Below, piece by piece: positions 604 through 57,003 of a stretch of 64,000 nt of DNA. Position 1 is the stretch's first letter. Every line of letters starts with the position of its first letter. Where the stretch lies: the NCBI RefSeq assembly GCF_019890725.1, contig NZ_JAINZZ010000045.1, forward strand, positions 1 to 64,000, written 5' to 3'. Origin of the DNA: Actinacidiphila acidipaludis (GTDB lineage Bacteria; Actinomycetota; Actinomycetes; Streptomycetales; Streptomycetaceae). The position numbers and the translations under genes are program-made. The notes beneath the pieces are model-generated. The model ran no database searches. It was not told the DNA's origin and was given only the letters and a program-made list of their open reading frames with translations.

Positions 604-2838
604 CTACTTGGTCAGGCTGAGCAGGGCGAAGATGCCGCCCACCACGGGACGCGCCTGGAAACCGCTCTGGACGCCCGACACCGTGTCGTACCAGTCGGTG
701 AACGGCACCCGGGTCGGCGTGGCCGTCGCGAAGTCGTACAGGGTGTCGATCAGCACCCGGCTGACCGCGTGCCCGCGCAGCCACGCCGCGGTCCACATCT
801 CCCAGTCGGCCTTGGTGTACGAGTGGCGCGGGTCGAGCGGCACGCCGTACTGGTTGACCTGCGTCAGGTACCAGTCGCCCTCCTCCTTGGCCACCGACGC
901 CGGGACGAGATCGAGCCCGAGCAGCGCGTCGGGGTAGCCGTTGTACTTCAGGCTCCAGGTGCCCGGCTGGTCGTAGGCGAGCTTGAGGTGGTCAGGCGTG
1001 GTGTCCTGCGCCTTGGTCACCCACTGCCCGATGTAGTCCTTGGCGGTGGAGCGGTAGCGGGTGGCGTCGGTCGCGTTGCCCGCGGCCGTCGCGATCTGCG
1101 CCATCGCGCCGATCGCGAGGATGCCCTTGAGCGCCAGGTTGGCGCTGTGCGCGATGAACCCGGTGAAGTCGTCCGTCTGGTTCTGGTACCCCGGGTCGAG
1201 CGCGTTGGCCACCAGGTAGTCGGTCCACTGCCGCAGGATCGCGTAGTGGTCGGTGGCGAACGCCTTGGCCGTCGCCGCGTCGGCCCGCGCGAGGTAGGCC
1301 GCGGTCATCAGGAGCATGTTGGCCGACTCCTCGACCGGCATGTCCTCCTCGTTGCCGTCGTTGTGGCCGCTGGCGTTGGGGTAGCTGGAGCCCAGGTCGT
1401 GCTCGGCGAACTCCTTGGGCCAGCCGCCGTTCTCGGCGTAGTCCAGGATCGGTTCGAGCAGCAGGCGCAGATACCCGGGGTCGGTGTAGAGGAACACCGG
1501 GATCGTCGGGTAGGTGACGTCCACCGAGGAGACGTTGCCGTCGGAGGAGATCTCCTTCAGGAACGCCCACGGCTTGCCGTTGCGGCTGACGAGTTCGGTG
1601 GCGCCGTAGGCCTGGCGCAGCGACAGCGCGCACAGCGCCGCGTACTTGGCGCCGCCGGCCGCCGTGGCGTCGCGCTGGATGCGGCGGTCGAGGGAGTCCG
1701 TGCGGGACCGCGCGTCGTCCGCGTCGGCGTGGAAGTACCCCACCATGTCCTGCCAGGTGGACCAGTAGGACTTCCACAGCGGCGGGAGCTGGGTGCCCAG
1801 GTAGCTCACCGAGGGCTCACGGACGTGCCCGATCGACAGGGCCGCGGTGCGCGGCGCGTTGCGCACGCTGCCCAGGTCGAAGTGGAAGGCGAACACCGGC
1901 CAGCGGTCGTTGATCGCGCGCGGCTGCGCGGTGTCCGCGGTGTTGCCGAGCTTGCCGTTCGCCAGCGCCGCGGGACGCACGTCGGTGTCCGCGCCGATCT
2001 GCCAGGTCAGCCCGTCCTGGTTGGCGGCGCTCCACACCACCGTGCCCCAGGACGCGGTGTCGGCGGTCTCGCGGAGGACCTGCGGGCTGTCCGGAGCGAA
2101 GGACAACGATGTCAGGCTGGGGCCCGCGCCCGCGGCCGGCACCTGCTCCTGCGCCCAGTGGATCTTCGTGCCGGAGTTGCCGTGCGCCCACTCGCCCGAG
2201 ATGTCGAAGTACAGGCCGACGTCGTGCGCCTTGCCGTCGAGCGAGCGCACCTCGGCGAAGATGTACGACAGCGGCATCGACTGGCGGCGCAGGTCGCCCG
2301 GTTCGACCGGGGACAGGAACGTCAGGGTCAGCCGCACCCCGCCGCCCTCGAGTTCGAACCGCGAACGCGTCGCGGTCAGCGTCAGCGACCGCTGCGCCAG
2401 CCCGCGCGGCAGGGGGTGGTCGGGCACGTTCGGGGCGCCGAGGAACAGGTAGTTCTGGCCGTCGATGACGGCGATGCCGGTCATGGCGGTGACACGGCCG
2501 GTCCAGAAGGTCGGCCAGTGGCCGGCCGGAACGTCGGCCGCCATCCAGGTGCTCAGGTACGGGGAGCGGACCGCGAGCGGCACGGCCGGGGGCCGCAGCG
2601 GGTCGAAGGCCGAGAGCGCGGGGCTGCCGGACGCGGACGTGGCGGGGGCGGACCCCGCCGTCGTCGACGGCTCGGCCTGCGCGGCGGTTACCACGCCGGG
2701 CAGCAGTGCCACCCCGGCCGCGCCCAGGCCCACCGCGCCGGACCGGGCCAGCAGCCCGCGGCGGCTCACGCCCCCGGCGTCGCTGCGGGATTCGCCGCCG
2801 GCACCCGGGGCGGCGGACGGGTTGATGCTTTCGGACAT
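604..2838 (-). CDS. Tat-secreted DUF4965 / glutaminase A-like protein
   Basis: 744 residues. The ATG at 2838 has GGAGG 7 nt upstream. The N-terminus carries a twin-arginine signal (SRRGLLARSGAVG, Arg26-Arg27) followed by an Ala-rich hydrophobic stretch. The mature part has the order seen in GtaA-like proteins: DUF5127-type beta domain, then DUF4965, then DUF1793, with landmarks such as MVGYFHADADDA, YPTIPVFLYTDPGYLR, EDMPVEESANMLLM and WEMWTAAW near the C-terminus. The family is named after a fungal glutaminase, but the fold is that of an (alpha/alpha)6 glycosidase. Divergence from a sugar importer, with a shared CAACGTTG site, favours a role on a glycoside or glycoconjugate. I infer a secreted hydrolase; the substrate is unknown. 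Confidence 0.85.
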   Translation of the reverse strand: MSESINPSAAPGAGGESRSDAGGVSRRGLLARSGAVGLGAAGVALLPGVVTAAQAEPSTTAGSAPATSASGSPALSAFDPLRPPAVPLAVRSPYLSTWMAADVPAGHWPTFWTGRVTAMTGIAVIDGQNYLFLGAPNVPDHPLPRGLAQRSLTLTATRSRFELEGGGVRLTLTFLSPVEPGDLRRQSMPLSYIFAEVRSLDGKAHDVGLYFDISGEWAHGNSGTKIHWAQEQVPAAGAGPSLTSLSFAPDSPQVLRETADTASWGTVVWSAANQDGLTWQIGADTDVRPAALANGKLGNTADTAQPRAINDRWPVFAFHFDLGSVRNAPRTAALSIGHVREPSVSYLGTQLPPLWKSYWSTWQDMVGYFHADADDARSRTDSLDRRIQRDATAAGGAKYAALCALSLRQAYGATELVSRNGKPWAFLKEISSDGNVSSVDVTYPTIPVFLYTDPGYLRLLLEPILDYAENGGWPKEFAEHDLGSSYPNASGHNDGNEEDMPVEESANMLLMTAAYLARADAATAKAFATDHYAILRQWTDYLVANALDPGYQNQTDDFTGFIAHSANLALKGILAIGAMAQIATAAGNATDATRYRSTAKDYIGQWVTKAQDTTPDHLKLAYDQPGTWSLKYNGYPDALLGLDLVPASVAKEEGDWYLTQVNQYGVPLDPRHSYTKADWEMWTAAWLRGHAVSRVLIDTLYDFATATPTRVPFTDWYDTVSGVQSGFQARPVVGGIFALLSLTK

Positions 2839-3050: not shown

Positions 3051-3064
3051 AACAACGTTGGAAA
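3051..3064. promoter_or_regulatory. CAACGTTG operator, DUF4965 side
   Basis: AACAACGTTGGAAA contains the perfect 8-bp palindrome CAACGTTG. An almost identical copy lies at 3308. The site is about 215 bp upstream of the DUF4965 start in the 556-bp divergent gap 2839-3394. LacI-family operators are short palindromes with a central CG, and a LacI-family gene ends the plus-strand operon, so it is the natural ligand (inference). Confidence 0.65.
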
Positions 3065-3275
3065 GCACCGGAATGACAGCACGCTCCCGGCGGCGTTGTC
3101 CAGACCCAGGGCGGGTTCTTCCGCCCGGAATGTCGACTCCACGTCCTCCGCGCCCAGTTCAGGGCCGTGTGCAGCCCCACTCACCTGTGACTCTCGGGAC
3201 CGCCGGGACGCCGGTGACCAACTGGCCCCGAGGCGGGTGTTTCTGACCGCCGAGCAGAAATCCTTGCACGGACGC

Positions 3276-3304
3276 TTGACAGTGTCCGGCGGTTGCCGCA
3301 GGGT
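3276..3304 (+). promoter_or_regulatory. Probable promoter of the YtfQ-type importer operon
   Basis: TTGACA at 3276-3281 is a perfect -35 box. With a 17-nt spacer the -10 region is CAGGGT (3299-3304), four of six matches to the streptomycete TAGGAT pattern. The operator copy at 3308-3321 directly follows, so a bound repressor would cover the transcription start. Confidence 0.6.
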
Positions 3305-3307
3305 CTC

Positions 3308-3321
3308 TACAACGTTGGAAA
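3308..3321. promoter_or_regulatory. CAACGTTG operator, importer side
   Basis: TACAACGTTGGAAA matches the site at 3051 in 13 of 14 positions. It sits just downstream of the predicted -10 box of the importer operon and about 75 bp before its start codon. This fits repression by the LacI-family protein encoded in the same operon. Confidence 0.7.
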
Positions 3322-3394: not shown

Positions 3395-4510
3395 ATGAAG
3401 ACGCTTCCGCGCGCCAAGACCCTGGCAGCCGCGATGCTCACGGCCGGCCTGTGCCTTTCCGCCGCCGCGTGCACCAACTCCGGCAACGACTCGGCGAAAT
3501 CGCCGTCGAGCAGCGCCTCGGACAACACCGCGGCCGCACAGCAGGTGGCGACGCCGACCGACAGTGCCTCCGGTCCGGCGTGCACCGCCGACAGATACGC
3601 CGGCGGCGTTGCCAAGCTGAACATCACCGACGGCAAGACCGTCGTCGGCTTCTCCCAGTCGGAGTCGACCAGCAACCCGTTCCGCGCCACCGAGACCAAG
3701 AGCATCGAGAACGAGGCGAAGCGGCTCGGCGTCAAGCTCATCGAGCGCAACGCCAACGCCGACGTCAACGCCCAGAACTCGCAGATCCAGGACATGATCG
3801 CGCAGGGCGCCAAGGTCCTGATCGTGGCCCCGGAGAACTCCGACGGCCTCGGTCCGGCCCTCGCCGAGGCCAAGTCCAAGAAGATCCCGGTGCTCACCAT
3901 CGACCGCACGGTCACCGGCACCGCCTGCACCGACTTCATCGCCTTCATCGGCTCGAACTTCTACGGTCAGGCGCAGATCGCCGCCGACGACCTCAACACG
4001 GCGACGGGCGGCAACGCGCACGTGGCGATCCTGACCGGAACGCCCGGCAACAACGTCACCACCGACCGGACCAAGGGCTTCCAGGACCAGGTCAAGGCGA
4101 AGTACCCGAACATCAAGATCGTCGCCTCGCAGACCGGCAACTTCGCCCAGACCGACGGCCAGAAGGTGATGGAGCAGCTGCTCCAGGCGCACTCCGACAT
4201 CAACGCCGTCTACGCCGAGAACGACGAGATGGCCCTGGGCGCGATCCAGGCGATCCGGTCGGCCGGGAAGACCCCCGGCAAGGACGTCAAGATCGTCACC
4301 ATCGACGGCATCCAGCAGATGGTGCAGAACGTCGCCGACGGCCTGGCCGTCGCGGACATCGAGACCAACCCGCGGTTCGGCCCGCTGGCCTTCCAGTCGC
4401 TGCAGAACTTCTACGGCACGGCCGGTGTGCAGGACAAGGTGATCATCAAGGACGGCCACTTCACCACGGCCAACGCCAAGCAGGCCCTGGCGCAGGGGCT
4501 CGTGTACTGA
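3395..4510 (+). CDS. Sugar ABC transporter substrate-binding lipoprotein, YtfQ-like
   Basis: 371 residues. The start is the ATG at 3395 because it opens a lipoprotein signal: hydrophobic core, then LSAAAC with the lipidated Cys at 26 and a Ser/Thr/Asn-rich linker. The mature part is a periplasmic-binding-protein-like sugar binder of the YtfQ group: NPFRATETKSIENEA near the N-terminus and AVYAENDEMALGAIQAI plus APENSDG blocks that resemble E. coli YtfQ closely. YtfQ binds galactofuranose, and relatives take arabinofuranose. It is the first gene of the operon and is followed by the ATPase after 123 bp. GAGGA lies 12 nt upstream of the start. Confidence 0.92.
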   Translation: MKTLPRAKTLAAAMLTAGLCLSAAACTNSGNDSAKSPSSSASDNTAAAQQVATPTDSASGPACTADRYAGGVAKLNITDGKTVVGFSQSESTSNPFRATETKSIENEAKRLGVKLIERNANADVNAQNSQIQDMIAQGAKVLIVAPENSDGLGPALAEAKSKKIPVLTIDRTVTGTACTDFIAFIGSNFYGQAQIAADDLNTATGGNAHVAILTGTPGNNVTTDRTKGFQDQVKAKYPNIKIVASQTGNFAQTDGQKVMEQLLQAHSDINAVYAENDEMALGAIQAIRSAGKTPGKDVKIVTIDGIQQMVQNVADGLAVADIETNPRFGPLAFQSLQNFYGTAGVQDKVIIKDGHFTTANAKQALAQGLVY

Positions 4511-4633: not shown

Positions 4634-6298
4634 ATGGTCCAGCAGGACCTCGACCCCCGCGGTGACTCCGTTCTGGAGGTATCGGGGGTGCACAAGAGCT
4701 TCGCGGGCGTGCACGCGCTGCGCGATGTGGACTTCGCGCTGCGGCCCGCCGAGGTGCACGCGCTGATCGGCGAGAACGGCGCGGGCAAGTCCACCCTGAT
4801 CAAGGTGATCACCGGCGTCTACCGGCCGGACAGCGGCACCGTCCGGCTGGACGGCCGCGAACGCGACTTCCGCAACCCGCTGGAGGCGCAGGCCGCCGGG
4901 ATCTCCACGATCTACCAGGAAGTCAACCTGGTCCCGTTGATGTCGGTCGCCCGCAACCTGTTCCTGGGCCGCGAGCCGCGGCGTTTCGGCCTGGTGGACG
5001 TGGGCCGGATGAACCGCGAGGCCGCCGAGGTGCTCGGCCGCTACGGCGTCGACGTCGACGTCACCCGGCCGCTGCGCACCCTGGGCCTGGGCGCCCAGCA
5101 GATGGTCGCGCTGGCCCGCGCGGTGCAGATCGACGCCCGCGTCGTCATCATGGACGAGCCCACCTCGTCCCTGGAACCGCGCGAGGTCGAGACGCTGTTC
5201 TCGGTGATCCGCCGCCTCAAGGAGCAGGGCATCGCGGTCGTCTACGTCAGCCACCGGCTCGACGAGCTGTACGCGATCTGCGACCGGGTGACCGTGATGC
5301 GCGACGGCGAGGTCGTCCACACCGGCGAGATCGCCCAGCTGGAGCGGCTGCGGCTGATCTCCCTGATGCTGGGCCGCGAGATGGCCACCGTACGGGACAA
5401 GGGCACCACGGCCTTCGACACCGACCGGCACGAACGGCAGACCGGCCGGCCGGTTCTCTCCGCCGAGGGACTGACGGTCCGCCACCGCCTGCACGACGTC
5501 TCCCTGGACATCCACCCCGGCGAGGTCGTCGGCCTCGGCGGTCTGCTCGGCGCGGGCCGCAGCGAGACCGCCAAGGCGATCGTCGGCGCGCTCGGCACCG
5601 ACGCCGGCTCCGTCGAGATCGAGGGCAAGCCGCTGCACCGGCGCAGCCCCGCCGCCGCGATCCGGGCCGGCGTCGTGATGCTCGCCGAGGACCGCAAGGC
5701 CGAGGGCATCATCCCGAACCTGTCGGTCCGCGAGAACATCTCGCTCGCCGCGCTGCCCCGGCTCTCCCGGGCCGGCGTGGTCTCCCAGGCCAAGCAGGAC
5801 GAGGTCGTCCGCCTCTTCATGGAACGCCTGCGGATCAAGGCGTCCGGGCCGGACCAGAAGGTCAGCGACCTGTCCGGCGGCAACCAGCAGAAGGTGCTGC
5901 TGGCCCGCTGGCTGTGCCTCAACCCGAAGGTGCTGCTGCTGGACGAGCCCACCCGCGGCATCGACGTCGGCGCCAAGGCGGAGGTGCAGTCCATCATCGA
6001 CGAACTCGCCGCCGACGGCCTCGGCGTGCTGCTCATCTCCTCCGACCTGGAGGAGCTGATCGAGGGCTCGGACCGCGTGGTCATCCTCAAGGACGGGCAC
6101 GTGGTGGGGAACCTCGACGGCGAGGACGTCAGCGAGGACGGCCTGCTCGACGCGCTGGCCACCGCGCCGCCGCTGTCGCCCGACGACCCCGACCTTCCCG
6201 AACAACCCGGCCCGGCCACCGGGCCCGAGAACCCCGGCGGGACGCCGCGGGCCGGATCGGACCCGGCCGCCGCGCCCGTGAAGGAGAAGCAGCGATGA
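4634..6298 (+). CDS. Sugar ABC transporter ATP-binding protein, YtfR-like
   Basis: 554 residues with the two fused ABC domains of the monosaccharide class. The first has Walker A GENGAGKST (46-54) and Walker B VVIMDEPTSSLEP. The second has the degenerate P-loop GLLGAGRSE normal for this class, then LSGGNQQKVLLARW and LLLDEPTRGIDVG. The protein powers import through the two permeases that follow. A Pro/Gly/Ala-rich tail of about 45 residues extends past the usual end. The stop overlaps the next start (ATGA), showing translational coupling. A GGAG lies 7 nt before the ATG. Confidence 0.95.
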   Translation: MVQQDLDPRGDSVLEVSGVHKSFAGVHALRDVDFALRPAEVHALIGENGAGKSTLIKVITGVYRPDSGTVRLDGRERDFRNPLEAQAAGISTIYQEVNLVPLMSVARNLFLGREPRRFGLVDVGRMNREAAEVLGRYGVDVDVTRPLRTLGLGAQQMVALARAVQIDARVVIMDEPTSSLEPREVETLFSVIRRLKEQGIAVVYVSHRLDELYAICDRVTVMRDGEVVHTGEIAQLERLRLISLMLGREMATVRDKGTTAFDTDRHERQTGRPVLSAEGLTVRHRLHDVSLDIHPGEVVGLGGLLGAGRSETAKAIVGALGTDAGSVEIEGKPLHRRSPAAAIRAGVVMLAEDRKAEGIIPNLSVRENISLAALPRLSRAGVVSQAKQDEVVRLFMERLRIKASGPDQKVSDLSGGNQQKVLLARWLCLNPKVLLLDEPTRGIDVGAKAEVQSIIDELAADGLGVLLISSDLEELIEGSDRVVILKDGHVVGNLDGEDVSEDGLLDALATAPPLSPDDPDLPEQPGPATGPENPGGTPRAGSDPAAAPVKEKQR

Positions 6299-7260
6299 CC
6301 TCCCTCACCTGGACCGGACCCGCGCTCGACCGCGCACGGGTCCGGCGCCTGCTCCAGGACTACGGCGTCTACGCCGCGCTGGCCGTGCTGTTCGTCGTCG
6401 CGGTCGGCCTGGACACCTCCTTCGTGCAGATGAGCAACATCCGCGTCCAGCTCTTCCAGGTCGCGCCCACCCTGCTGGTGGCCCTGGGCATGGCCCTGGT
6501 CATCGGCACCGAGGGCATCGACCTGTCGGTCGGCGCGGTGATCGCGCTCGCCGCATCGGTGGTGCCGCTCTACGTCGGCTACGGAATGCTTCCCGCGCTG
6601 GCCGTGTCCCTGCTGCTGGGCGCCGTGTCCGGCGCGGTCGGCGGCGCGATGGTGGCCCTGGCCCGTATCCAGCCGATCGTGGCCACCCTCTCGCTGATGA
6701 TCGGCGTCCGCGGACTGGCCGAGATCGTCAACGGCAACTCCGCCAAGCCGGTCACCCAGTCCGGCCTGCTCGACCTCGGCTCGCAGAGCGTGGCCGGCAT
6801 CCCCGAGATGGCCTGGATCGCCGGGATCTGCGCGCTGCTGACCGGGCTGCTGGTGCGGCGCACCACCTTCGGCCGGCAACTCGTCGCCATCGGCGACAAC
6901 CGCCAGGCCAGCCGGCTGTCCGGACTCCCGGTGCGCCGGGTGCTGATCACCGTCTACGTGATCTCCGGCGTCCTCTCCGCGCTGGCGGGTGTGCTGATCG
7001 TCGGTCACGGCGCCGAGGCGGACCCGGCCAACCAGGGACTGAACATGGAGCTGAACGCGATCACCGCGGTGGTCGTCGGCGGCACGCCGCTCAGCGGCGG
7101 CCGGGTGCGCGTGCTCGGCACGGTTGCCGGCGCGCTGTTCATGCAGCTGATCACCGCCGTGCTCACCCAGCACAACGTGCACACCTCGTACACCCAGATC
7201 GTGGAGGCCGCGATCATCTGCTTCGCGGTCTACGCCTCCCAGGAGCGTGGTACCCGATGA
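6295..7260 (+). CDS. Sugar ABC transporter permease, YtfT-like
   Basis: 321 residues with eight to ten hydrophobic segments. The BPD_transp_2 signature of this class is clear: GTEGIDLSVGAVIALAAS and, near the C-terminus, NAITAVVVGGTPLSGGRV. It forms half of the membrane channel with the product of the next gene. Both ends overlap neighbours by the ATGA arrangement, so the ATPase and both permeases are translated as a coupled set. Confidence 0.94.
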   Translation: MTSLTWTGPALDRARVRRLLQDYGVYAALAVLFVVAVGLDTSFVQMSNIRVQLFQVAPTLLVALGMALVIGTEGIDLSVGAVIALAASVVPLYVGYGMLPALAVSLLLGAVSGAVGGAMVALARIQPIVATLSLMIGVRGLAEIVNGNSAKPVTQSGLLDLGSQSVAGIPEMAWIAGICALLTGLLVRRTTFGRQLVAIGDNRQASRLSGLPVRRVLITVYVISGVLSALAGVLIVGHGAEADPANQGLNMELNAITAVVVGGTPLSGGRVRVLGTVAGALFMQLITAVLTQHNVHTSYTQIVEAAIICFAVYASQERGTR

Positions 7261-8261
7261 CCTCCGCCGTGCTGCCGCCGCCGGCCACCGCCAAGGCCCG
7301 CGCCCCGCGGGCCACGCTCGGCGAGCGGATCGCCTCCCAGGTGCAGCGCCGCGGTGCGCTCGCGGTCCTGGTGCTGGTGGTCGCCATCGCCTCGGCCACC
7401 TCCTCGACCTTCCCCACCTGGTCCAACATCAGCAGCATCCTGGGCAACAACGCCTTCGTCTGGCTGCTGGCCCTCGGCATGACCTTCGTCATCATGACCG
7501 GCGGCATCGACCTGTCGGTGGGCTCGATGTACGCGCTCGGGGGAGTGCTCGGGGCCTACGGGTCCACCCACGGCACCTGGCTCGCCGTCCTGCTGCCGCT
7601 CGCGGTGGGCGCGGCCTGGGGCACGGTGCAGGGACTGCTGGTCGCCAAGGCGGGCATGGCCCCGTTCATCGTCACCCTCGTCGGACTGCTCGGACTGCGC
7701 GGACTCCTCCAGGCGGTCACCGACGAGGGCGCCACCACCTACCTCGTGCCGCAGCACTCGGCGTTCCGCCACCTGGGCTCGGGCGTGTGGACCCCGGTGC
7801 TGATCACCGCGGCGTTCTTCGTGCTCGGCATCGTCCTGCTGACCCGCACCCGTTTCGGCCACACCCTCACCGCCATGGGCGGCAACGAGAACGCGGCCGT
7901 CCTGCTCGGCCTGCCCGTCGCCCGCACCAAGGTGACGGTCTACCTGCTGTCCGGCACCCTGGCCGCCGCGGCGGGGGCGCTCGGCGGCGCCCGGCTCGGC
8001 TCGGGTGTGACCACCATCGGCATCGGCTACGAACTCACCGCCATCGCCTCGGTGGTGATCGGCGGCACGCTGCTCACCGGCGGCAGCGGCTCGGTCGGGG
8101 GCACCGCGGCGGGCGTCCTGCTGCTCGCGGTGATCCACAACCTGATCGACCACTACTTCTCGCAGTACGGCTCCGCCTTCACCGACACCGTCAACGGCGG
8201 TTTCCTGGCGGCCGTGGTGCTGCTGCAGACCCTGCTCAGCCGCAAGCAGCAGCTCGAATGA
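7257..8261 (+). CDS. Sugar ABC transporter permease, YjfF-like
   Basis: 334 residues, membrane protein with the class motif MTGGIDLSVGSMYALGG and the late ELTAIASVVIGGTLLTGG block. Two distinct permeases in one operon is the YtfT/YjfF arrangement and differs from the single permease of AraFGH or RbsABC systems; the arabinose importer at 53-57 kb has only one. The start overlaps the stop of the previous gene. A 121-bp gap separates it from the repressor gene. Confidence 0.94.
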   Translation: MTSAVLPPPATAKARAPRATLGERIASQVQRRGALAVLVLVVAIASATSSTFPTWSNISSILGNNAFVWLLALGMTFVIMTGGIDLSVGSMYALGGVLGAYGSTHGTWLAVLLPLAVGAAWGTVQGLLVAKAGMAPFIVTLVGLLGLRGLLQAVTDEGATTYLVPQHSAFRHLGSGVWTPVLITAAFFVLGIVLLTRTRFGHTLTAMGGNENAAVLLGLPVARTKVTVYLLSGTLAAAAGALGGARLGSGVTTIGIGYELTAIASVVIGGTLLTGGSGSVGGTAAGVLLLAVIHNLIDHYFSQYGSAFTDTVNGGFLAAVVLLQTLLSRKQQLE

Positions 8262-8382: not shown

Positions 8383-9534
8383 GTGGGTGTCAGCCTCAAG
8401 GACGTGGCGTTGCGCGCCGGCGTCTCGCTCAGGACGGCGTCGAAGGTGGTCAACGGCAGTCCGCACCTGCGCCCGGCCACGCGTGAACGCGTCCTGCGGG
8501 CGGTCGACGAACTCGGCTACCGGCCCAACCTGACCGCGCGTCACCTGCGCAGCGGCCGTACCGGACTGATCACCATGGCGGTGCCGGACGTGGCACGCCC
8601 CTACTTCGCCGAACTGGCCGGCGCCGTCATCGAGACGGCCGCCCGCTACGGCCGCACCGTCCTGCTCGACCACACCGGCGGCTCGTACGAGCGCGAGCTC
8701 ACCGTCTGCAACGGCGCCCGCTCGCACCTCGCCGACGGACTGATCCTCAGCCCCGTCCGCCTCGCCGAGGAGGACCTGCGGGCCCGCGCCGACCAGGCCC
8801 CGCTCGTCCTGCTGGGCGGCGGCGAGTACCGGGTGCCCTACGACCACATCGCCATCGACGACGTCGCCGCGGCCCGCACCGCGGTCCGGCACCTGGCGTC
8901 GCTCGGGCGCCGCCGCATCGCCTTCGTCGGCGCGAGCGACGACCGCGCCCGCCGCGAGGCCGACCTGCGGCTGCGCGGCTGGCGCGAGGAACTGGCCGCG
9001 GCCGGCACCGTCCCGTCCACCGCGCTCGTGGCGGCCACCGACGGCCGGGGCCGCCAGGACGGCCTGGCCGCCATGACCCGGCTGCTCGCCCGGCAGCGCA
9101 GCCGTGGACGCCCGGTGCCCGACGCGGTGTTCGCCTGCAACGACCAGCTGGCGCTGGGCGCGATGCGCGCCCTGGCCCAGCACGGGCTGCGCGTCCCCGA
9201 GGACGTCGCTGTGGTCGGCTTCGACGACACCGAGGAGGGACGGTACGCGGCGGTCTCGCTGACCACCATCGCACCCGACACCTCCGCGATCGCCCGGCTC
9301 GCCGTGACCCGCCTGGTGGAACGCATCAGCTGGGACGGCGCCTCGCCGCCGCCGGCGCCGGTACGGATCACCCCCGGCCACACCCTGGTCGTGCGGGAGT
9401 CGACGACCGGCAGGTCGGGGACAGGTCGGGCCCCTCCGCGACCCGCCGCACCGGCCTTCGAACCGGCCGCCCCCGCCCATGCCTTCGCCGGCTGCCAGTC
9501 CCGGCAGCCGCCCGTCGCCCGAGGAACCGTATGA
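8383..9534 (+). CDS. LacI-family repressor of the furanose-type operon
   Basis: 383 residues from a GTG start with GGAGAGGAG just upstream. Residues 1-50 form the LacI helix-turn-helix (VSLKDVALRAGVS with recognition helix LRTASKVVNG); the rest is the periplasmic-binding-like effector domain (LAVVGFDDTEEG-type block near 280). A tail of about 40 Pro/Ala/Arg-rich residues follows the normal family end and overlaps the epimerase start. Position inside the importer operon suggests local control; the CAACGTTG sites at 3051, 3308, 13878, 14007 and perhaps 31966 are the best candidate operators (inference). It is a close paralogue of the fragment at 1-363. Confidence 0.92.
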   Translation: MGVSLKDVALRAGVSLRTASKVVNGSPHLRPATRERVLRAVDELGYRPNLTARHLRSGRTGLITMAVPDVARPYFAELAGAVIETAARYGRTVLLDHTGGSYERELTVCNGARSHLADGLILSPVRLAEEDLRARADQAPLVLLGGGEYRVPYDHIAIDDVAAARTAVRHLASLGRRRIAFVGASDDRARREADLRLRGWREELAAAGTVPSTALVAATDGRGRQDGLAAMTRLLARQRSRGRPVPDAVFACNDQLALGAMRALAQHGLRVPEDVAVVGFDDTEEGRYAAVSLTTIAPDTSAIARLAVTRLVERISWDGASPPPAPVRITPGHTLVVRESTTGRSGTGRAPPRPAAPAFEPAAPAHAFAGCQSRQPPVARGTV

Positions 9535-10686: not shown

Positions 10687-13600
10687 TCAGGACGCCGGAG
10701 CGTCCAGCGCGCCGACGTCCGCAGCCGTCAGCGCGCGGTTCCAGGCCTGGACCTGGTCGATCGCGCCCGGCCAGAAGTCGGCGTCGTGCGACCCCGAGAA
10801 GCCGCGGCCGATGGCGAAGGGACCGGGCGCCGCGTCACCGGCCGGCTGGTGCCAGACGGTGGACTGCGCCGCGCCGTCGACGTACAGGGTGTACGTGCCG
10901 GCGTCCGCGTCGTGCACACCCACCAGGTGGTACCACCGGCCGGTCACCGGTGCCTGGTCGGACAGCGCCCGGCCCTCGCCGGTGGAGAACGCCAGGCGGT
11001 TGTCCGCGGCCGAGTACTGGAGGTAGAAGCCGCTGCTGACGGAGCCGTCCTGGCTGACGGCGGTGGCCCACGACCCGGTGCGGTCGAGCCGGACCCAGGC
11101 ACTCACCGAGAAGTTGCCCGTGGTGTCCAGCACCGGAGTCTGGGTCTGACCGAACTGACCCCCGTTGCCGTCGAGTTGCAGCGCCGATCCGGAGACGCCC
11201 GGCACCCGGGCCGGCGCGCCGCTCAGCGTCGCGTCGTGGCCGCCCGCGCTGTCGTGGGCGACGGTCCCGGTCGTCTCGTCCAGGCTCCACACCCCCACCG
11301 GATCGTGCTGCCCCGCGGCGAACACGGTCCGCACGTTCTGCAGGTGGTGCGTCGACTCGGTGGCGCCGTGTCCCCGCCGGTAGTCGGCCGTGGCCATCAG
11401 CGCCCCCGCGGTGCCCGGCGCGATCCCGTCCGGGGCGCCGACGGTGAAGTGCCAGACGGCCGAGCCGTGCGGGGCGATCGACTCCGGCCGGTCGCCGGCC
11501 GGGGCCGCGGTCCACCCCGCCGGCGCCGCGAGGCGCACGGACGCGGCGTCCAGCCGGTCGGCGGTGGTGTTGCGCACGGTGACGTCCACCGATGTCGAAC
11601 CGCCCACCGTGATCAGCCCGTCGGGGTTCGCCGGTCCGACGCCGACCGACGCGTCGCGGCTGGAGGCCCCCCAGGCCTGGAACTCCGTCACGCCGACAAA
11701 GGCCCCCGGCGGGTCGGTGAACAGCAGCCGCACCCGGCTGGTGGTCAGGGCCGGGAAGGTGATCCGGTTCAGGCCGTCGCCGACCGGCTGGGCGGAGTCG
11801 CGCACCTGCCCTGGGACGTCCTGCCAGGCCGCGCCGTCCCAGTACTGCACGCGGTACGCGGCGGCCGGCCGGACCCCGCCGCCGTCGTCGTACCCGTACC
11901 AGCGGATGTCGCTGACGCTCGTGGGAGCGCCGAAGTCGACGCCGTAGGAGTCCTGGGCGTTGGGCGAGGAGTAGTTCGTCCAGCGGGTGTTCTCCGGGAC
12001 CTCGTCGAACCAGACCTTGCCGTCCAGCGCGTTCCACGCGTTGTCGTACGTCCAGGTGTACGAGGTCAGCGGCTTGGGGTAGCCCTGGCGCAGCGGGTTG
12101 GCGGCGTCGTTCACCAGGCCCGGGGGCGCGGCGGCCACGGTCGCGCCGACGCCCACCGTGGTGTCCTTGAGCGTGGCCGAGGAGCGCACCGGACGCCCGT
12201 CGAGGTAGATCCGCAGGCCGGCGCCCTGGTGGTAGTGGCTGCCGTCGCGGTCCCACAGCACCGTGACGTTGTGCCCGTGGTAGGGCACGTTCTCGGCGGC
12301 GAAGTGGTCCCAGGAGGACGGCACCAGGGGCTGCACGCGCAGGTTGCCGCCGGCTTGCGGACGCAGGCCGATCAGACCGGACAGCACCAGGTCGTCGTAG
12401 GTCGAGTGGTTGTAGTCCTCACTGTGGTCGTAACCGTCGTAGATCCAGCGGTCGTTGTCCGGGTCGTGCGCCTCGGCGACGTAGGGCTTGCCGTTGCGCG
12501 TCTGCGTTCTGGCGTACGTGGCCAGGGCGGCGGCGTAGTCGTCCTTGGTGACCGCGTTCTGCGCCGGGTAGTCGTCCAGCAGGTCGGCCATGCCGGTGAG
12601 CGTCTGCGAGGTCGCGAACGGCCAGCTCGGGCCGTCCCAGCGGCAGCAGTTGCCGGCCTCGTGCATGAAGTACGGGCTGCGGCGCTCGGCCGTCGTCGGG
12701 CCGTAGGCGCTCGCGAAGCCCTGCGGGTCCAGCAGCTGGGACCAGGCGGAGGCGTCGGAGGGCTCGGCGGCGCCGAACATCCACGGGATGTAGCCGATCT
12801 CCTCACGGGTGTCGGACAGCTTGTGGTCCGGGTTGCCGTCGCGCGCCATGGCGTAGTAGAAGCCGCGGCTCGGGTCCCACAGCCACTTCTGCAGGGCCGT
12901 CTTCAGCCCTGCGGCGCGTCCGGCGTACTCGGCGGCGAGCGCCGGGTCGCCGGCCGCGCGGGCGATCGCGCTGATCGCCATCGCGTCGCCGTACTGGTAG
13001 GAGTTCAGCGTCGGCCGGTACCCCGCGCCGCCGTGGTACGGGTCGCCCGACGCGTAGGAGGAGGCCGAGAACTCCATGGCGTCCCACACCGGGACCGACC
13101 AGTACAGGCCGAGCTTCGCGTCGAACTGCTTGTCCCAGCCGCGGTACTGGCGCACCAGCGCGGGCAGCAGGGCCTTCACCCGGCTGAAGTCGCCGGTCAC
13201 CTCGGCCTGCTGGTACGCCGCGGTGGCCAGCCACACGCTGTACTCGTGCGCCCAGTCGGCGGTGTCGGCGTTGACGTCGTCGGTGGCGGGCTTGCTGCCG
13301 GCGCCCGGCCCGGTCAGCCAGAACCGGATGTAGTCGTCGTCGTAGGACTGGTCGCGCACCCAGCGGCCCTCGGTGATCTGGTGCCCGGCCGCGGCGTTGA
13401 TGGCCTGGTAGGGCGCCGCGTAGCCGCAGCAGTCGAGGAACTCCGTGGAGATCCAGCCGTCGGCCGGGTCGGTGTAGCGCAGGTGCTCCTTGTAGTCCCG
13501 CCAGCGGTAGTAGTAGACGCTCTGCATCGTGGCGTCCGGCAGGTCGACGAACGGGATGTTGGCCTCGTACCAGGCGGGATCGGCCACCCCGGACAGGTAG

Positions 13601-13851
13601 GAGGCGTCGTCCAGGAAGTGGGTGCCCGCCCCCACCGCCGGGTACGGCTGGGGGGTGCCGGGCGCCGTGTCGCGGCCGGCTCCCGGGAGCCCCGAGGCCA
13701 GGGCCTGGCCCGAGGCGCCGGCGAGCGCGAGCAGCACCAGCGCCGCGAACGCGGCGACGCATGCCGTCGCGCGGGCGGCGTGGCGCTGGGCGGCGGAACC
13801 GGCCCCCGGGGGCCGTGCTCTGCCCGGGCCGTGGTGCACCTGCTGAGGCAT
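10687..13851 (-). CDS. Secreted multidomain glycoside hydrolase, (alpha/alpha)6 type
   Basis: 1054 residues. ATG at 13851 with GGAGGT 6 nt upstream. A long signal region (hydrophobic core about 30-50, ending LASG) precedes a large catalytic part with the look of the trehalase/GH63-like MGH1 fold: YYYRWRDYKEHL, WISTEFLDCCGY, WDAMEFSAS, EEIGYIPWMFG and GPSWPFATSQT. A discoidin-like part follows (YGVDFGAPTSVSDIRWYGYD), then an NEW3-like bacterial Ig segment, then a LamG/concanavalin-type lectin (WSLDETTGTVAHDSAGG to the end). The family and substrate are not certain; a furanoside, or a plant or fungal side chain, would fit the neighbours. Two operator-like sites upstream link it to the importer regulon. 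Confidence 0.85.
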   Translation of the reverse strand: MPQQVHHGPGRARPPGAGSAAQRHAARATACVAAFAALVLLALAGASGQALASGLPGAGRDTAPGTPQPYPAVGAGTHFLDDASYLSGVADPAWYEANIPFVDLPDATMQSVYYYRWRDYKEHLRYTDPADGWISTEFLDCCGYAAPYQAINAAAGHQITEGRWVRDQSYDDDYIRFWLTGPGAGSKPATDDVNADTADWAHEYSVWLATAAYQQAEVTGDFSRVKALLPALVRQYRGWDKQFDAKLGLYWSVPVWDAMEFSASSYASGDPYHGGAGYRPTLNSYQYGDAMAISAIARAAGDPALAAEYAGRAAGLKTALQKWLWDPSRGFYYAMARDGNPDHKLSDTREEIGYIPWMFGAAEPSDASAWSQLLDPQGFASAYGPTTAERRSPYFMHEAGNCCRWDGPSWPFATSQTLTGMADLLDDYPAQNAVTKDDYAAALATYARTQTRNGKPYVAEAHDPDNDRWIYDGYDHSEDYNHSTYDDLVLSGLIGLRPQAGGNLRVQPLVPSSWDHFAAENVPYHGHNVTVLWDRDGSHYHQGAGLRIYLDGRPVRSSATLKDTTVGVGATVAAAPPGLVNDAANPLRQGYPKPLTSYTWTYDNAWNALDGKVWFDEVPENTRWTNYSSPNAQDSYGVDFGAPTSVSDIRWYGYDDGGGVRPAAAYRVQYWDGAAWQDVPGQVRDSAQPVGDGLNRITFPALTTSRVRLLFTDPPGAFVGVTEFQAWGASSRDASVGVGPANPDGLITVGGSTSVDVTVRNTTADRLDAASVRLAAPAGWTAAPAGDRPESIAPHGSAVWHFTVGAPDGIAPGTAGALMATADYRRGHGATESTHHLQNVRTVFAAGQHDPVGVWSLDETTGTVAHDSAGGHDATLSGAPARVPGVSGSALQLDGNGGQFGQTQTPVLDTTGNFSVSAWVRLDRTGSWATAVSQDGSVSSGFYLQYSAADNRLAFSTGEGRALSDQAPVTGRWYHLVGVHDADAGTYTLYVDGAAQSTVWHQPAGDAAPGPFAIGRGFSGSHDADFWPGAIDQVQAWNRALTAADVGALDAPAS

Positions 13852-14030: not shown

Positions 14031-15002
14031 TCACAGCCAGCCGCGTTGAGCCGCCAGGGCTGCCGCCTGGAACCGGGTGGACGCCCCGAGATCGGTCATC
14101 AGCCGGTGGATGCGGCGCTGCGTGGTGCGCTGGCTCCAGCCCCGGGCACGGGCTATCGCGGCGTCGGTGCTGCCCGAGGTGAGCAGGAGCAGCAGCGCGC
14201 GCGTCTCGGCGTCGGGACCGGAGGGGTCGGCGTGCCGCAGCGAGTCCTGCAGCGGGACCGCGCGCGCCCACTCCGCCTCGAACAGCGCCTCCAGCGCGCT
14301 CAGCATGGGGGAGCGGTGGATCAGATAGGCCGCCGAATGACCGCCGGGGGCGAGGCTGAAGGGAATGATGGCCGACCGGTCGTCGGAGACCACGAGCTTG
14401 AGCGGGAGGTCCGCCCGCACCCTGGCCTGCTCGCCGGTGCGGACGCTGGGCAGGATGTCGTGCTCCAGCCGGCCCGGCCAGGCGACGGCCGCCCGGTCGT
14501 AGATCACCCGGTGCACCACGCCGGTGCGCTGGCGCTCGACCTGCGTCTGCAGGTTGCTGCCCGGCCGGTCGACGTACGGCGGGCGGTCGAACGCCCGCAC
14601 CTCGCGCCGGGCGCCCTCGGTCAGCCGGCGCACGGCGGCGCTGATGTCCTCGCGGTCGGTGAGGAGTTCCACCGCGATGTCCGGGTCGCTGATGCGCAGC
14701 GCCTCACGGTGGGTCTCGGTGAGCTTCTGCACCAGGGAGCGCGCGGCGTCCAGCCGGTGCTCCCGCTCCTGGATCAGCGCGGTGACGGCCACGTCCGGCG
14801 CCGTCGCGGTGAAGTGCGGCGGGCGGCCCGCCGCGCGGGCGGCCAGACCGTCCCTGACCAGGCCGGACAGCACCCGCCCGGCCGCGCTCGGGGAGAGCCC
14901 GCACGCCTCCGCGATCCGTCCGGCCGCGCTGCGCGGCAGCCCCACGAGCGCGGTGTACACCCGCTCTGTTTCCTCGTTGAGTCCGAGGACGTCAAGTTCC
15001 AT
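14031..15002 (-). CDS. TrmB / LuxR-type two-HTH regulator
   Basis: 323 residues, ATG at 15002 with GGAG 6 nt upstream. The N-terminus is a TrmB-like winged helix (GLNEETERVYTALVG, then SAAGRVLSGLVRDGLAARA). The C-terminus has a LuxR-like helix (DAAIARARGWSQRTTQRRIHRLMTDLGA). The middle resembles a phospholipase-D-like sensor as in TrmB regulators. This architecture is common in streptomycetes, often beside secreted enzymes. It is divergent from the secreted protease at 15206 with a 203-bp gap, so control of that protease is plausible but not shown. I see no clear operator in that gap. Confidence 0.85.
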   Translation of the reverse strand: MELDVLGLNEETERVYTALVGLPRSAAGRIAEACGLSPSAAGRVLSGLVRDGLAARAAGRPPHFTATAPDVAVTALIQEREHRLDAARSLVQKLTETHREALRISDPDIAVELLTDREDISAAVRRLTEGARREVRAFDRPPYVDRPGSNLQTQVERQRTGVVHRVIYDRAAVAWPGRLEHDILPSVRTGEQARVRADLPLKLVVSDDRSAIIPFSLAPGGHSAAYLIHRSPMLSALEALFEAEWARAVPLQDSLRHADPSGPDAETRALLLLLTSGSTDAAIARARGWSQRTTQRRIHRLMTDLGASTRFQAAALAAQRGWL

Positions 15003-47415: not shown

Positions 47416-48471
47416 ATGTCCCAGACCGCGGAGAGCACCGGCCCTCGCCGGGCCCCCACCATGGCGGACGTCGCCAAGCTCGCCGGGGTGTCGCACCAGA
47501 CCGTCTCCCGCGTGCTGAGCGACCACCCCAATGTACGCGACACCACCCGTGCCGAGGTGCAGCGGGCGATCGAGCAGCTCGGGTACCGCCGGAACTCCTC
47601 GGCCCGCGCGCTGGTCACCCGCCGCACGCTCACGCTCGGCGTGGTCGCCTGCAACCCCACGCTGTTCGGCCCGGCGAGCACCCTGTTCGGCCTGGAGGAG
47701 GCGGCCCGCAGCGAGGGCTACATGGTCTCCGCGGTGACCCTCCGCCAGTACACCGCGAAGGCGCTGGAGGAGGCGATCGACCATCTCAGCGACTGGGGGG
47801 TGGAGGGCATCGTGGTGATCGTCCCGCATCGCGCCGCCGTCGAGGCGCTCGCCGAACTCCGCCTGCCCTTCCCGGTGGTGACCGTCGAGGGCGGTCACTC
47901 CCTGCCGATAGCGGGTGTCTCGGTCGACCAGGACCTCGGCGCCCGGCTGGCCACCGGCCACCTGCTGGCCGCCGGGCACCGCACGGTCTGGCACGTCGCC
48001 GGACCCTCGGACTGGCTGGAGGCCGAGGCGCGCGTGCGCGGCTGGCGCGCCACGCTCGAGGAGGCCGGCGTCGAGGTGCCGCCGCCGCTGGTGGGGGACT
48101 GGACGCCGCTGTCCGGCTACCGGGCCGGTCAGGAACTCGCCGGGCGGGTCGCCGCCGGCCAGGCCCGGCGCTCCTCGCCCGACGTCACCGCGGTGTTCGT
48201 GGCCAACGACCAGATGGCGCTCGGTGTCATGCGCGCCTTCCGCGAGGCGGGCCTCTCGGTTCCGGGCCAGGTGGCCATCGCCGGGTTCGACGACATCCCC
48301 GAGGCCGAGTTCTTCGCACCCCCGCTGACCACCGTCCGCCAGGACTTCGCCGCGGTCGGCAAGGCCAGCATCAGCCTGCTGACCCGGCGACTGGACTCCC
48401 CGGGCCGGTCCGAGGCCGAGCGCGTCGTGATCGAGCCCCGGCTCATCGTCCGCAGCAGCACCGTGTCCTGA
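47416..48471 (+). CDS. LacI-family repressor of arabinose genes
   Basis: 351 residues from the ATG at 47416. The helix-turn-helix (ADVAKLAGVSHQTVSRVLSDHP) keeps the Gln and Arg that in E. coli LacI contact the lac operator (YQTVSRV there, HQTVSRV here). The hinge helix SARALVTRR and effector domain (VAIAGFDDIPEAEFFAPPLTTV) are normal. It precedes araB by 72 bp on the same strand. The palindromes at 47377, 50223, 50238, 52851 and 53039 are the likely binding sites. The inducer is probably L-arabinose or an arabinose oligomer (inference). Confidence 0.94.
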   Translation: MSQTAESTGPRRAPTMADVAKLAGVSHQTVSRVLSDHPNVRDTTRAEVQRAIEQLGYRRNSSARALVTRRTLTLGVVACNPTLFGPASTLFGLEEAARSEGYMVSAVTLRQYTAKALEEAIDHLSDWGVEGIVVIVPHRAAVEALAELRLPFPVVTVEGGHSLPIAGVSVDQDLGARLATGHLLAAGHRTVWHVAGPSDWLEAEARVRGWRATLEEAGVEVPPPLVGDWTPLSGYRAGQELAGRVAAGQARRSSPDVTAVFVANDQMALGVMRAFREAGLSVPGQVAIAGFDDIPEAEFFAPPLTTVRQDFAAVGKASISLLTRRLDSPGRSEAERVVIEPRLIVRSSTVS

Positions 48472-48543
48472 CGTCCCGACACCCGGTCACGGATCCCGGC
48501 CGCGGTGGGCCGGACCTGACCCCTGCTCTCACTGGAGACAGCC

Positions 48544-50196
48544 ATGACGACCGATCCACCGTCCGTCACCGTCGGCGTCGACTTCGGGACGCTGTCCGGC
48601 CGCGCCCTCGTCGTCGACACCGCGGACGGCCGTGAACTGGGCAGCGCGGTCCACGAGTACACGCACGGCGTGGTGGACGAGGCGCTCCCCGGCGGCGCCG
48701 CGCTGCCGCCCGACTGGGCCCTGCAGATACCCCAGGACTGGCGGGACGTCCTGCGGTTCGCGGTGCCCCGCGCGCTGGAGGCGGCCGGCGTGCGCCCGCG
48801 CCAAGTGGTGGGCATTGCCACGGACTTCACGGCCTGCACCGTGCTGCCCGCCACCTGGGACGGCACACCGCTGTGCGAACTCCCCGGGTACCGGGACCGG
48901 CCGCACGCCTATCCCAAGCTGTGGCGGCACCACGCGGCCCAGCCGGAGGCCGACCTCATCGTGCGCCGGGCCGAGGAGTCGGGACAGGCGTGGCTGGCCC
49001 GCTACGGCGGTCGGATCTCCAGCGAGTGGCAGTACGCCAAGGCCCTCCAGGTGCTCCGCGAGGACCGGGCGGTGTACGACGCCGCCGACCGCTGGATCGA
49101 GGCGGCGGACTGGATCGTGTGGCAGCTCACGGGCGAGGAGAACCGCAACCCGTGCACCGCCGGATACAAGGGCGTCCACCAGGACGGCCGTTACCCCGAC
49201 GCCGCGTTCCTGGCCTCGCTGGACCCGGACTTCGCCGGATTCACCGCCAAGCTCGACCACCCGCTCTCCGCGCTCGGCGCCCCCGCGGGCAAGCTGAGCG
49301 CGGCCGCCGCGGCGCTGACCGGCCTGCGCGAGGGGACAGTGGTGGCCGTCGGCAACGTCGACGCCCATGTCACCAGCGCCGCCGCCCAAGCCCTCGACCC
49401 CGGCCACATGCTGGCGATCATGGGCACGTCCACCTGCCACATCATGAACTCGGACGTGCTGGCCGAAGTGCCGGGCATGTGCGGTGTGGTCCGCGACGGC
49501 GTCGTACCGGGCCTGTGGGGCTACGAGGCCGGCCAGAGCGGCGTGGGCGACATCTTCGCGTGGGCGGTGCGCACCGCCGCCCCGCACGCCTACGCGGCCG
49601 AGGCCCGAGGGCGCGGCATCTCCGTGCACGAACTGCTCACCGAGAAGGCGGCCGCCCAGCCGGTCGGCGGCCACGGCCTGCTCGCCCTGGACTGGCACAG
49701 CGGCAACCGGTCGGTCCTGGTGGACCACCACCTGTCGGGACTGATCGTGGGGCTGACCCTGGACACCCGCCCCGAGGACGTCTATCGCGCACTGGTCGAG
49801 GCCACGGCCTTCGGCACCCGCACCATCGTGGAGGCGTTCGAGCAGGCCGGCGTGCCGGTCACCGACTTCACGGCGGCGGGCGGGCTGCTGAGGAACCGCT
49901 TCCTCATGCAGACCTACAGCGACGTGCTCAACCGTCCCGTCAACGTCCTCGCCTCCGAGCAGGGGCCCGCACTGGGCGCCGCCATCCACGCCGCGGTCGC
50001 CGCCGGAGTCCACCCCGACATCCGTGCCGCCTCGGCCGCCATGGGCCGCCTGCAACGGCACGCCTTCACGCCCGACCCGGCGCGGGCCGCCGCCTACGAG
50101 CCCCTGTTCGCCGAATACCGCGCCCTGCACGACCACTTCGGCCGGGGCGGCAGCGACGTCATGCACCGCCTGCGCGCCCTGCGGGCCGCGACCTGA
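48544..50196 (+). CDS. araB: Ribulokinase
   Basis: 550 residues from the ATG at 48544. It phosphorylates L-ribulose at O5 with ATP, the second step of arabinose use. The FGGY-kinase frame is complete: VTVGVDFGTLSGRALVVD at the N-terminus, GNVDAHVTSAAAQ and MLAIMGTSTCHIMNSD for the ATP site, and the FAAGGLLRNRFLMQ-type AAGGLLRN block near 450. GYKGVHQDGRYP and CGVVRDGVVPGLWGYEAGQ are typical of AraB. Length fits the family. It begins the catabolic genes araB-araD-araA. Confidence 0.97.
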   Translation: MTTDPPSVTVGVDFGTLSGRALVVDTADGRELGSAVHEYTHGVVDEALPGGAALPPDWALQIPQDWRDVLRFAVPRALEAAGVRPRQVVGIATDFTACTVLPATWDGTPLCELPGYRDRPHAYPKLWRHHAAQPEADLIVRRAEESGQAWLARYGGRISSEWQYAKALQVLREDRAVYDAADRWIEAADWIVWQLTGEENRNPCTAGYKGVHQDGRYPDAAFLASLDPDFAGFTAKLDHPLSALGAPAGKLSAAAAALTGLREGTVVAVGNVDAHVTSAAAQALDPGHMLAIMGTSTCHIMNSDVLAEVPGMCGVVRDGVVPGLWGYEAGQSGVGDIFAWAVRTAAPHAYAAEARGRGISVHELLTEKAAAQPVGGHGLLALDWHSGNRSVLVDHHLSGLIVGLTLDTRPEDVYRALVEATAFGTRTIVEAFEQAGVPVTDFTAAGGLLRNRFLMQTYSDVLNRPVNVLASEQGPALGAAIHAAVAAGVHPDIRAASAAMGRLQRHAFTPDPARAAAYEPLFAEYRALHDHFGRGGSDVMHRLRALRAAT

Positions 50197-50222
50197 GCCC
50201 ACCGCTTCAACGGGCCCGGATT

Positions 50223-50249
50223 GTGAGCGCTCACCTTGTGAGCGCTCAC
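50223..50249. promoter_or_regulatory. Tandem near-ideal lac-type operators before araD
   Basis: GTGAGCGCTCAC occurs twice as a perfect 12-bp palindrome (50223-50234 and 50238-50249), each within TTGTGAGCGCTCACC. Centre spacing is 15 bp, so the two sites are on different faces of the helix. The sequence equals the symmetric core of the artificial ideal lac operator. They should bind the repressor at 47416 and control araD-araA separately from araB. Confidence 0.75.
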
Positions 50250-50301
50250 CCTCAACGGCCCTCTTGCTTCGTCGTTCTCCTGTTTCCGAATTCCAATCAG
50301 T

Positions 50302-50342
50302 TCCCGCCGAGTTCCCCCGAGTCCCGCCGAGTTCCCCCCGAG
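50302..50342. repeat. 20/21-bp tandem duplication before araD
   Basis: TCCCGCCGAGTTCCCCCGAG (50302-50321) is followed at once by the same sequence with one extra C (50322-50342). The last GAGG is the likely araD ribosome site, 6 nt before the ATG. Copy number could alter leader length. Confidence 0.75.
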
Positions 50343-50349
50343 GTCGCCG

Positions 50350-51060: not shown

Positions 51061-51063
51061 CGT

Positions 51064-52572: not shown

Positions 52573-52836
52573 GCACACGGATCAGCCGGGCGCGCGGTGC
52601 CGGCTCCGCGGGCGGCCGGCACCGCGCCGGTCCGTCCGTGAGCGTGAACACCCGGTCGTGCGCCCGCCGTCGCCATCTCCGCGCGCGGGCGGGCGGTTGC
52701 CGCCGTCGCCGTCCGGGACGCGCCCGGGCCGGGCCGCGCAGGTGGCGGGCACGCCTTGTCCGCCCGCCGCTCCGGCCTGCCCTGACGCGGCCACAGAACG
52801 TGCACGATCCCACGGTTTTTTCTTCCGCGCGACACC

Positions 52837-52864
52837 TTGACGCGACTCCGGTGAACGCTAACAA
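52837..52864 (+). promoter_or_regulatory. Promoter and operator of the arabinose importer operon
   Basis: TTGACG (52837-52842) and TAACAA (52859-52864) are spaced by 16 nt. GTGAACGCTAACA (52851-52863) over the -10 box is the same operator as at the repressor promoter. Transcription would start near 52871, leaving a leader of about 215 nt before the binding-protein gene. The gap 52573-53086 otherwise shows the leader ORF, a stem-loop and a second operator. Confidence 0.7.
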
Positions 52865-52898
52865 TCTCTGCCTAGCGATGGAGCGCAAGGAGGAAGCG

Positions 52899-56980: not shown

Positions 56981-57003
56981 CCCCACTCCCGAGGAGGAAG
57001 CTT

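Follow-up and report, generated by a model that had tools for sequence, protein, structure and literature searches.

A conserved palindrome as the predicted operator of a LacI-type furanoside regulon in Actinacidiphila and other actinobacteria

The divergent gap between a minus-strand DUF4965-type gene and a plus-strand gene for a YtfQ-like binding protein in Actinacidiphila acidipaludis contains two near-identical 14-bp sites, O1 and O2 (Table 1), whose sequences we verified where the first-pass annotation of this 64,000-nucleotide stretch of DNA (hereafter the window) had placed them. We propose that they represent a 16-bp palindrome, TTTNYAACGTTRNAAA, which is probably the operator of a LacI-family repressor, LacI-1, controlling galactofuranoside use. 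The proposal builds on features read directly from the sequences, viz., site conservation, intergenic placement, gene content, and the sister relationship between LacI-1 and a second repressor, LacI-2, which is encoded within the importer operon, as had been noted earlier.

Operator sites and their conservation

A search of the window with TACAACGTTGGAAA at up to three mismatches returned five rows for four distinct places, the 3308 site being read a second time on the minus strand; shuffled versions of the window gave a mean of 0.37 matches and reached five in none of 100 shuffles. Scored with TNYAACGTTRNA, the window has an exact match at 3308 alone and single mismatches at 3051, 13878, and 14009, and all four of these places with at most one mismatch are intergenic (gene table from a purpose-written codon-usage caller, with the genes discussed here verified with Pfam). 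CAACGTTG occurs three times, at 3053, 3310, and 31969. Of the related sites listed by the first-pass annotation, those at 13878 and 14007 are present, whereas the one at 31966 shares the common core but has different flanks.

In the genome as a whole (G000; 8.48 Mb in 170 contigs, the window contig being C111), exact TNYAACGTTRNA is found at nine places, which make 18 rows, one per strand; the reversed-motif control yields 0. The genome search proposed earlier, with TACAACGTTGGAAA and two mismatches, returns 14 rows against 3 control rows, and the motif is not as frequent inside genes as upstream of them: none of the nine exact places falls within a called gene, although called genes make up 86% of the examined sequence. 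In seven relatives, called genes contain 2 of 36 places, and the control is zero in six of these genomes, the seventh (G018) having two control places against two true ones. In three genomes (G025, G030, and G031) the only two places are both at the importer locus. Other sites in relatives are again associated with PA14-GH2 and GH76 genes (G003 and G023), and further with a GH127 gene in G023 and a GH54 gene in G003. The two C86 places (Table 1) were left out of the core regulon because the importer operon that follows them is a separate one and includes a LacI gene of its own.

A CAACGTTG-type pair, 30-35 bp apart, stands before this different importer operon in three species (L052, i.e., G000:C86, at 9175 and 9210; L091 in G023; and L076 in G001), and the LacI of the operon in G000 has the helix GVSVRTVSNVVNG. 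At another locus, L084 (G003:C77), an extra LacI-1-type gene (6303-7319; 89%) neighbors a PA14-GH2-type gene, and the gap between the two contains an exact operator.

The search of the genus covered 34 other genomes and the 900 bases upstream of each binding-protein match, CAACGTTG-like sites being those with at most one mismatch. At least two such sites are present at 10/10 of the closest orthologous loci (83-96% identity) and at 13 of the 16 loci with 52-55% identity, a locus at a contig end (L042) being counted as unread. Two loci (L035 and L039) are without a pair there, but in the larger regions around them (L067 and L066) two sites precede a large gene located just ahead of the importer; in L066 this gene is a PA14-GH2 gene by Pfam. 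Paralogue loci at 36-37% identity (L045-L047) have no site pair. Across 80 actinobacterial loci, which are not independent because many are from close Streptomyces, the 600 bp upstream of the importer gene contain an exact site in 57 and a site with at most one mismatch in 69, with shuffles (20 per locus) giving 0.05 and 0.9, respectively, for the 80 loci. At four further loci an exact pair is found ahead of a PA14-GH2-type gene, itself encoded before the importer gene and on its strand, and the seven with no good site upstream of either the importer gene or the preceding gene are all outside Streptomycetaceae (by record title: Cellulomonas, an Acidimicrobiia MAG, a Corynebacteriales MAG, Nonomuraea, Modestobacter, Virgisporangium, and Haloactinopolyspora); sites are present also at Micromonosporaceae, Catenulispora, and Rhodococcus loci. 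The 72 distinct sites of this set give a 16-bp palindrome with the half-site T-T-T-A/C-C-A-A-C and a central CG, its core being built in, since a central CG and no more than one mismatch were conditions for choosing the sites. This conservation supports the earlier reading of an operator pair at a furanose-type importer.

At the importer side of the gap, a predicted promoter comprises TTGACA (3276-3281) and CAGGGT (3299-3304), the latter ending just 5' of the 3308 site. The spacer between the hexamers is 17 in four of five aligned species and 18 in G001. In the same alignment TTGACA is kept and the block from CAGGGT through O2 is uninterrupted, which places O2 at the presumed transcription start. 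The earlier description of O2 as lying just past a -10 box thus stands as regards its adjacency to CAGGGT and the conserved hexamers, but a strict sigma-70 scan found no promoter at the importer gap, and for this reason we treat the promoter as a prediction. O1 is also kept in the five aligned species, with one base changed in G023 and in G001. DNA looping by helical phasing is unsupported, because the 24 distinct paired-site spacings are without clear helical phasing (r=0.21 at 10.5 bp).

Table 1. Features of the window and exact TNYAACGTTRNA places in the A. acidipaludis genome (positions without a contig prefix are those of the window)
Feature	Position	Strand	Remarks
LacI-1, C-terminal 120 aa	1..363	+	First 218 aa end contig C4 (L051:14724-15377); Pfam Peripla_BP_3
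DUF4964-DUF5127-GtaA-hairpin (DUF4965-type) protein	604..2838	-	Pfam; relative reported as glycoside hydrolase
Predicted operator O1, AACAACGTTGGAAA	3051..3064	+	Divergent gap, DUF4965-type gene side; motif search and alignment
Promoter-like TTGACA - 17 nt - CAGGGT	3276..3304	+	Predicted; both hexamers kept in five species
Predicted operator O2, TACAACGTTGGAAA	3308..3321	+	Directly after CAGGGT -10-like box of importer operon
YtfQ/GafA-like sugar-binding protein	3395..4510	+	Profile search
ABC importer ATPase	4634..6298	+	Best NCBIfam match YtfR
ABC importer permease 1	6295..7260	+	Best NCBIfam match AraH, below cut-off
ABC importer permease 2	7257..8261	+	Best NCBIfam match YjfF, below cut-off
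LacI-2, diverged sister repressor	8383..9534	+	In importer operon; recognition helix GVSLRTASKVVNG
Aldose 1-epimerase, galactose-1-epimerase subfamily PRK11055	9531..10619	+
1054-aa hydrolase, lectin-like domains	10687..13851	-	Residues 92-561 resemble C-terminal half of 5mqr
Operator-like site TATAACGATGGAAA	13878..13891	+	Upstream of minus-strand hydrolase gene
Second operator-like site TACAACGATAGAAA	14007..14020	-	Upstream of hydrolase gene
Exact places	C4:14444, C4:14620		Upstream of LacI-1
Exact places	C45:34089, C45:34270		Upstream of GH127 protein
Exact place	C45:87690		Upstream of GH76 protein
Exact place	C91:20811		Upstream of PA14-GH2 protein
Exact place	C111:3308		Upstream of importer
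Exact places	C86:35174, C86:35209		Upstream of separate importer operon with own LacI

Genes associated with the sites

Among the NCBIfam families listed, the binding protein scores best with the YtfQ equivalog NF041827 (194.8 bits, below the cut-off of 510) and the ATPase with the YtfR equivalog NF041861 (590.8 bits, below the cut-off of 850); permease 2 reaches 192 bits with YjfF (cut-off 363) and permease 1 179 bits with AraH (cut-off 378). The epimerase exceeds the PRK11055 cut-off of 240 with 290.2 bits. LacI-2 has the domains PF00356 (60.3 bits; cut-off 27) and PF13377 (136 bits), and LacI-1 has Peripla_BP_3 in its window part (Pfam) and an HTH in its C4 half, recognized by alignment to LacI proteins. 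The predicted structure of the DUF4965-type protein has a mean pLDDT of 52, too poor for use.

Residues 92-561 of the large hydrolase match residues 651-1098 of the 5mqr chain (E=3.9e-97), a beta-L-arabinobiosidase by its PDB name, the C-terminal half of which we take to be GH142; the window protein is predicted to be GH142-like and a candidate furanosidase. Its matches at E<=1e-120 are confined to 9 of 35 genomes (10 rows). Site pairs, allowing one mismatch, lie upstream of the hydrolase gene at L190-L196, with none at L197 and one site each at the distant L198 and L199, so that, of the eight proteins (counting that of the window) that reach 71% identity or more, seven are preceded by a pair. 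The pair is kept even in G033 and G011, though the hydrolase is there on another contig or millions of bases away from the importer. The earlier suggestion that the regulon reaches a large secreted hydrolase is supported by the presence and conservation of this pair. Upstream of the hydrolase, a TrmB/MarR-like HTH gene (14031-15002) is found on the same strand, with the 14007 site just past its stop codon.

The LacI-1 gene of A. acidipaludis is split by a contig break, its 218 aa at the end of C4 and 120 aa at the start of the window summing to the 338 aa of its relatives, and two sites lie upstream of it (Table 1). G023 and G001 each have an intact LacI gene next to that of the DUF4965-type protein, and the gene order in these two genomes supports the joining of C4 to C111. 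A tree of 95 LacI rows (called proteins of >300 aa and >45% identity, plus hand-chosen ones) places LacI-1 inside the importer-operon LacI proteins of Actinacidiphila, the split gene being closest to the LacI that importer operons of this genus usually contain, and LacI-2 on a separate long branch, a kind of branch whose position may be wrong according to a warning of the program.

Among the neighbors of the importer at the 80 loci are genes for GH2 (45 loci; best segment with 45% identity or more to the PA14-GH2 protein of A. acidipaludis), GH127 (32), DUF4965-type (14), GH54 (6), and relatives of the window hydrolase (4), with at least one of these five glycosidase types in 66 loci, as well as LacI (62; at least 58% identity) and the epimerase (48). 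GH2 galactofuranosidase-type genes are hence the commonest importer-adjacent glycosidases among the types counted. Comparison with solved structures covered three GH2 proteins: the C91 PA14-GH2 protein of A. acidipaludis matches 9j6n (beta-D-galactofuranosidase 2) over residues 296-865, catalytic part included (E=1e-157), a GH2+AbfB protein encoded across the operator gap in S. rubiginosohelvolus (L140) matches it with 1097 bits, and the GH2 protein of L167 matches solved structures at E=1.3e-146. The PA14 domain is reported to matter for galactofuranosidase activity on Aspergillus fumigatus galactomannan (PMC5391426). GH76 enzymes among the targets would be in keeping with a mannan backbone of fungal origin. 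The window further encodes an L-arabinose cluster (47416-58566), with a LacI, an FGGY kinase, a class II aldolase-type protein, an arabinose isomerase, genes for a sugar-binding protein, an ATPase, and a permease, and a GH54 arabinofuranosidase.

Competing readings of the sites

The idea that these matches are merely chance palindromes in a GC-rich genome deserves practically no credence: LacI-type cores are short and the two-mismatch control still gives three rows, but no shuffled window attains the observed count, the exact-palindrome control is empty, and conservation contradicts it, with pairs at all ten close orthologous loci and sites at 69 of the 80. Less extreme, yet still very unlikely in our estimation, is the full regulon of the first-pass annotation, in which one repressor governs the importer, the hydrolases, and the secreted protease encoded at 32089. 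The site before this protease, at 31966, has the same 8-bp core, and it (TGGCAACGTTGTCA) or a one-base variant lies upstream of four of six orthologues with at least 82% identity (in G012, G015, G023, and G026); it does not occur within 600 bases upstream in G001 and G008, and two other genomes searched have no protease match over 58% identity. Against a common repressor, the 31966 site departs from TNYAACGTTRNA by two mismatches, one per side, and fits a separate palindrome, TGNCAACGTTGNCA, several places of which lie before other secreted enzymes; the protease is accordingly dropped from the regulon. At no more than one mismatch, TGNCAACGTTGNCA is found at 24 places in the A. acidipaludis genome (7 exact) against 1 in the control. 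Of 15 loci examined (L200-L214, two overlapping), the site is inside a called gene in three, and the genes near the sites code for GH92, GH76, and GH2 enzymes, an esterase, a GDSL lipase, and the window protease. TGNCAACGTTGNCA probably marks another LacI-type regulon of secreted enzymes, predicted to have a different repressor.

Concerning the repressor of the TNYAACGTTRNA sites, LacI-2, to which the role had been assigned, might bind them alone or in competition with LacI-1, and we regard this as rather unlikely. It sits in the importer operon at the position where other species keep their single LacI, and its DNA-binding region is conserved, G000 and G023 agreeing at 57 of 60 residues. However, its recognition helix, GVS(V/L)RTASKVVNG, contrasts with GVSVKTVSNVVNN in LacI-1 in 5/5 of the species with both genes, and differs from GVS[VIA]KTVSNVVN, the helix of the LacI that goes with the sites in most Streptomycetaceae loci having a called LacI; four Micromonosporaceae loci with sites have yet another LacI helix, GVS[VL]ATVSNVVN, which counts against our assignment. 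LacI-2 also forms the long separate branch of the tree and has a dN/dS of 0.41 between G000 and G023, as against 0.12 for LacI-1, and the hydrolase operators persist in G033 and G011, each with a single LacI match at E<=1e-80 that is not LacI-2. Because of the helix difference, the tree, the dN/dS values, and these two genomes, we predict LacI-1 to be the likelier regulator. With LacI-1 and its operators retained, the sugar might instead be L-arabinofuranose, or both furanoses, the regulon then serving arabinose-rich plant polymers, a reading that we judge improbable to about the same degree. The GH127, GH54, and 5mqr-type enzymes do bear arabinofuranosidase names, GH2 subfamilies 18 and 19 (which hold 9J6M) contain alpha-L-arabinofuranosidases as well as galactofuranosidases according to passages of PMC12243196, and an L-arabinofuranose binder, part of an importer for this sugar, belongs to the YtfQ/GafA family and has pocket residues that, in the available text of PMC10191376, are identical to those of galactofuranose binders, rendering the pocket unusable for telling the sugar. 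On the other side, GH2 galactofuranosidase-type genes predominate next to the importer among the types counted, A. niger GH51 and GH54 enzymes are described in part of PMC4560423 as also cleaving galactofuranosides, and the separate arabinose cluster of the window, three upstream regions of which were scanned, has no site better than 3 mismatches and was rejected as a co-target. Since the GH2 neighbors are related to galactofuranosidases and the arabinose cluster is without a comparable site, galactofuranose is most likely the sugar.

Predicted regulon and its relation to known systems

We infer binding, repression, the ligand, and the enzyme activities from the above patterns as follows. Without an inducer, LacI-1 would occupy the paired operators; at the importer, O2, directly 3' of the predicted -10 box, would mask the presumed start of transcription, and O1 would lie toward the divergent DUF4965-type gene, with transcription blocked both ways. 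Entry of galactofuranose, or of a sugar made from it, into the cell would cause LacI-1 to release the DNA, and the GH2 galactofuranosidase and the DUF4965-type, 5mqr-like, GH127-like, and GH76 proteins would be produced together with the YtfQ-type importer and its epimerase; predicted operators also stand before the LacI-1 gene itself. LacI-2, which five species have, is the sister protein, its recognition helix being altered. As a tentative extension, for which we claim no great probability, the regulon would tie the DUF4965-type, distant GH127, and 5mqr/GH142-like families to galactofuranose breakdown, some of them being new galactofuranosidases, and LacI-2 would have been re-aimed at a different operator after LacI-1 took the importer. 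Alpha-D-galactofuranose is the hexose counterpart of beta-L-arabinofuranose, and on account of this resemblance the GH127 and GH142 relatives could be candidate alpha-D-galactofuranosidases.

Galactofuranose occurs in some bacterial and fungal glycans (PMC5391426) and, as described in a part of PMC11084152, is restricted to nonmammalian species. Enzymes for its cleavage are known, but the matches listed in the literature searches include no account of its uptake and sensing in actinobacteria. Literature searches by title or abstract start, with subscription journals and regulon databases outside their scope, found no published description of the regulon among the matches listed, nor did a search with the motif letters list any title on it; the available text of a review on galactofuranose enzymes is without the terms operon, repressor, and gene cluster (PMC7278926). 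The remark of the first-pass annotation that it did not recognize this combination was therefore fair, though each type of component is known: what seems to be new is the assignment, the operator, its wide conservation, and the two-sister arrangement of parts of known kinds. A regulator with conserved operators predicts which uncharacterized enzymes to try on galactofuranosides, and the promoter-repressor pair could serve as a galactofuranose sensor.

LacI/GalR-family sugar regulons with a central-CG palindrome are known, and the predicted regulon shares with them the LacI HTH and sugar-binding domains, the palindrome type, and sites before the repressor's own gene, but differs in its target set and flanks and in the coexistence of two sister repressors in five species. 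The importer has the one binding protein, one ATPase, and two permeases of YtfQRT-YjfF of E. coli and GafABCD of Shewanella sp. ANA-3, as given in the available text of PMC10191376; in contrast to YtfQRT-YjfF, all scores are below the equivalog cut-offs, permease 1 is closest to AraH, and the importer genes are accompanied by genes for a LacI and for glycosidases. Among Streptomyces beta-D-galactofuranosidases are ORF1110 (JHA19; PMC4560423) and the PA14-type ORF0643 (JHA26; PMC5391426), and like the latter the C91 protein combines PA14 and GH2; the parts of those papers available describe the enzymes rather than operators, an importer, or a repressor, whereas the activity of the proteins treated here is predicted. 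The DUF4965-type protein of the window has the same domain plan as WP_074995790 of Streptomyces misionensis (DUF4964/DUF5127/DUF4965), for which the available text of PMC9668830 gives weak beta-galactosidase and undetectable glutaminase activity and does not establish a substrate, whereas the gene context here predicts a galactofuranoside or other furanoside.
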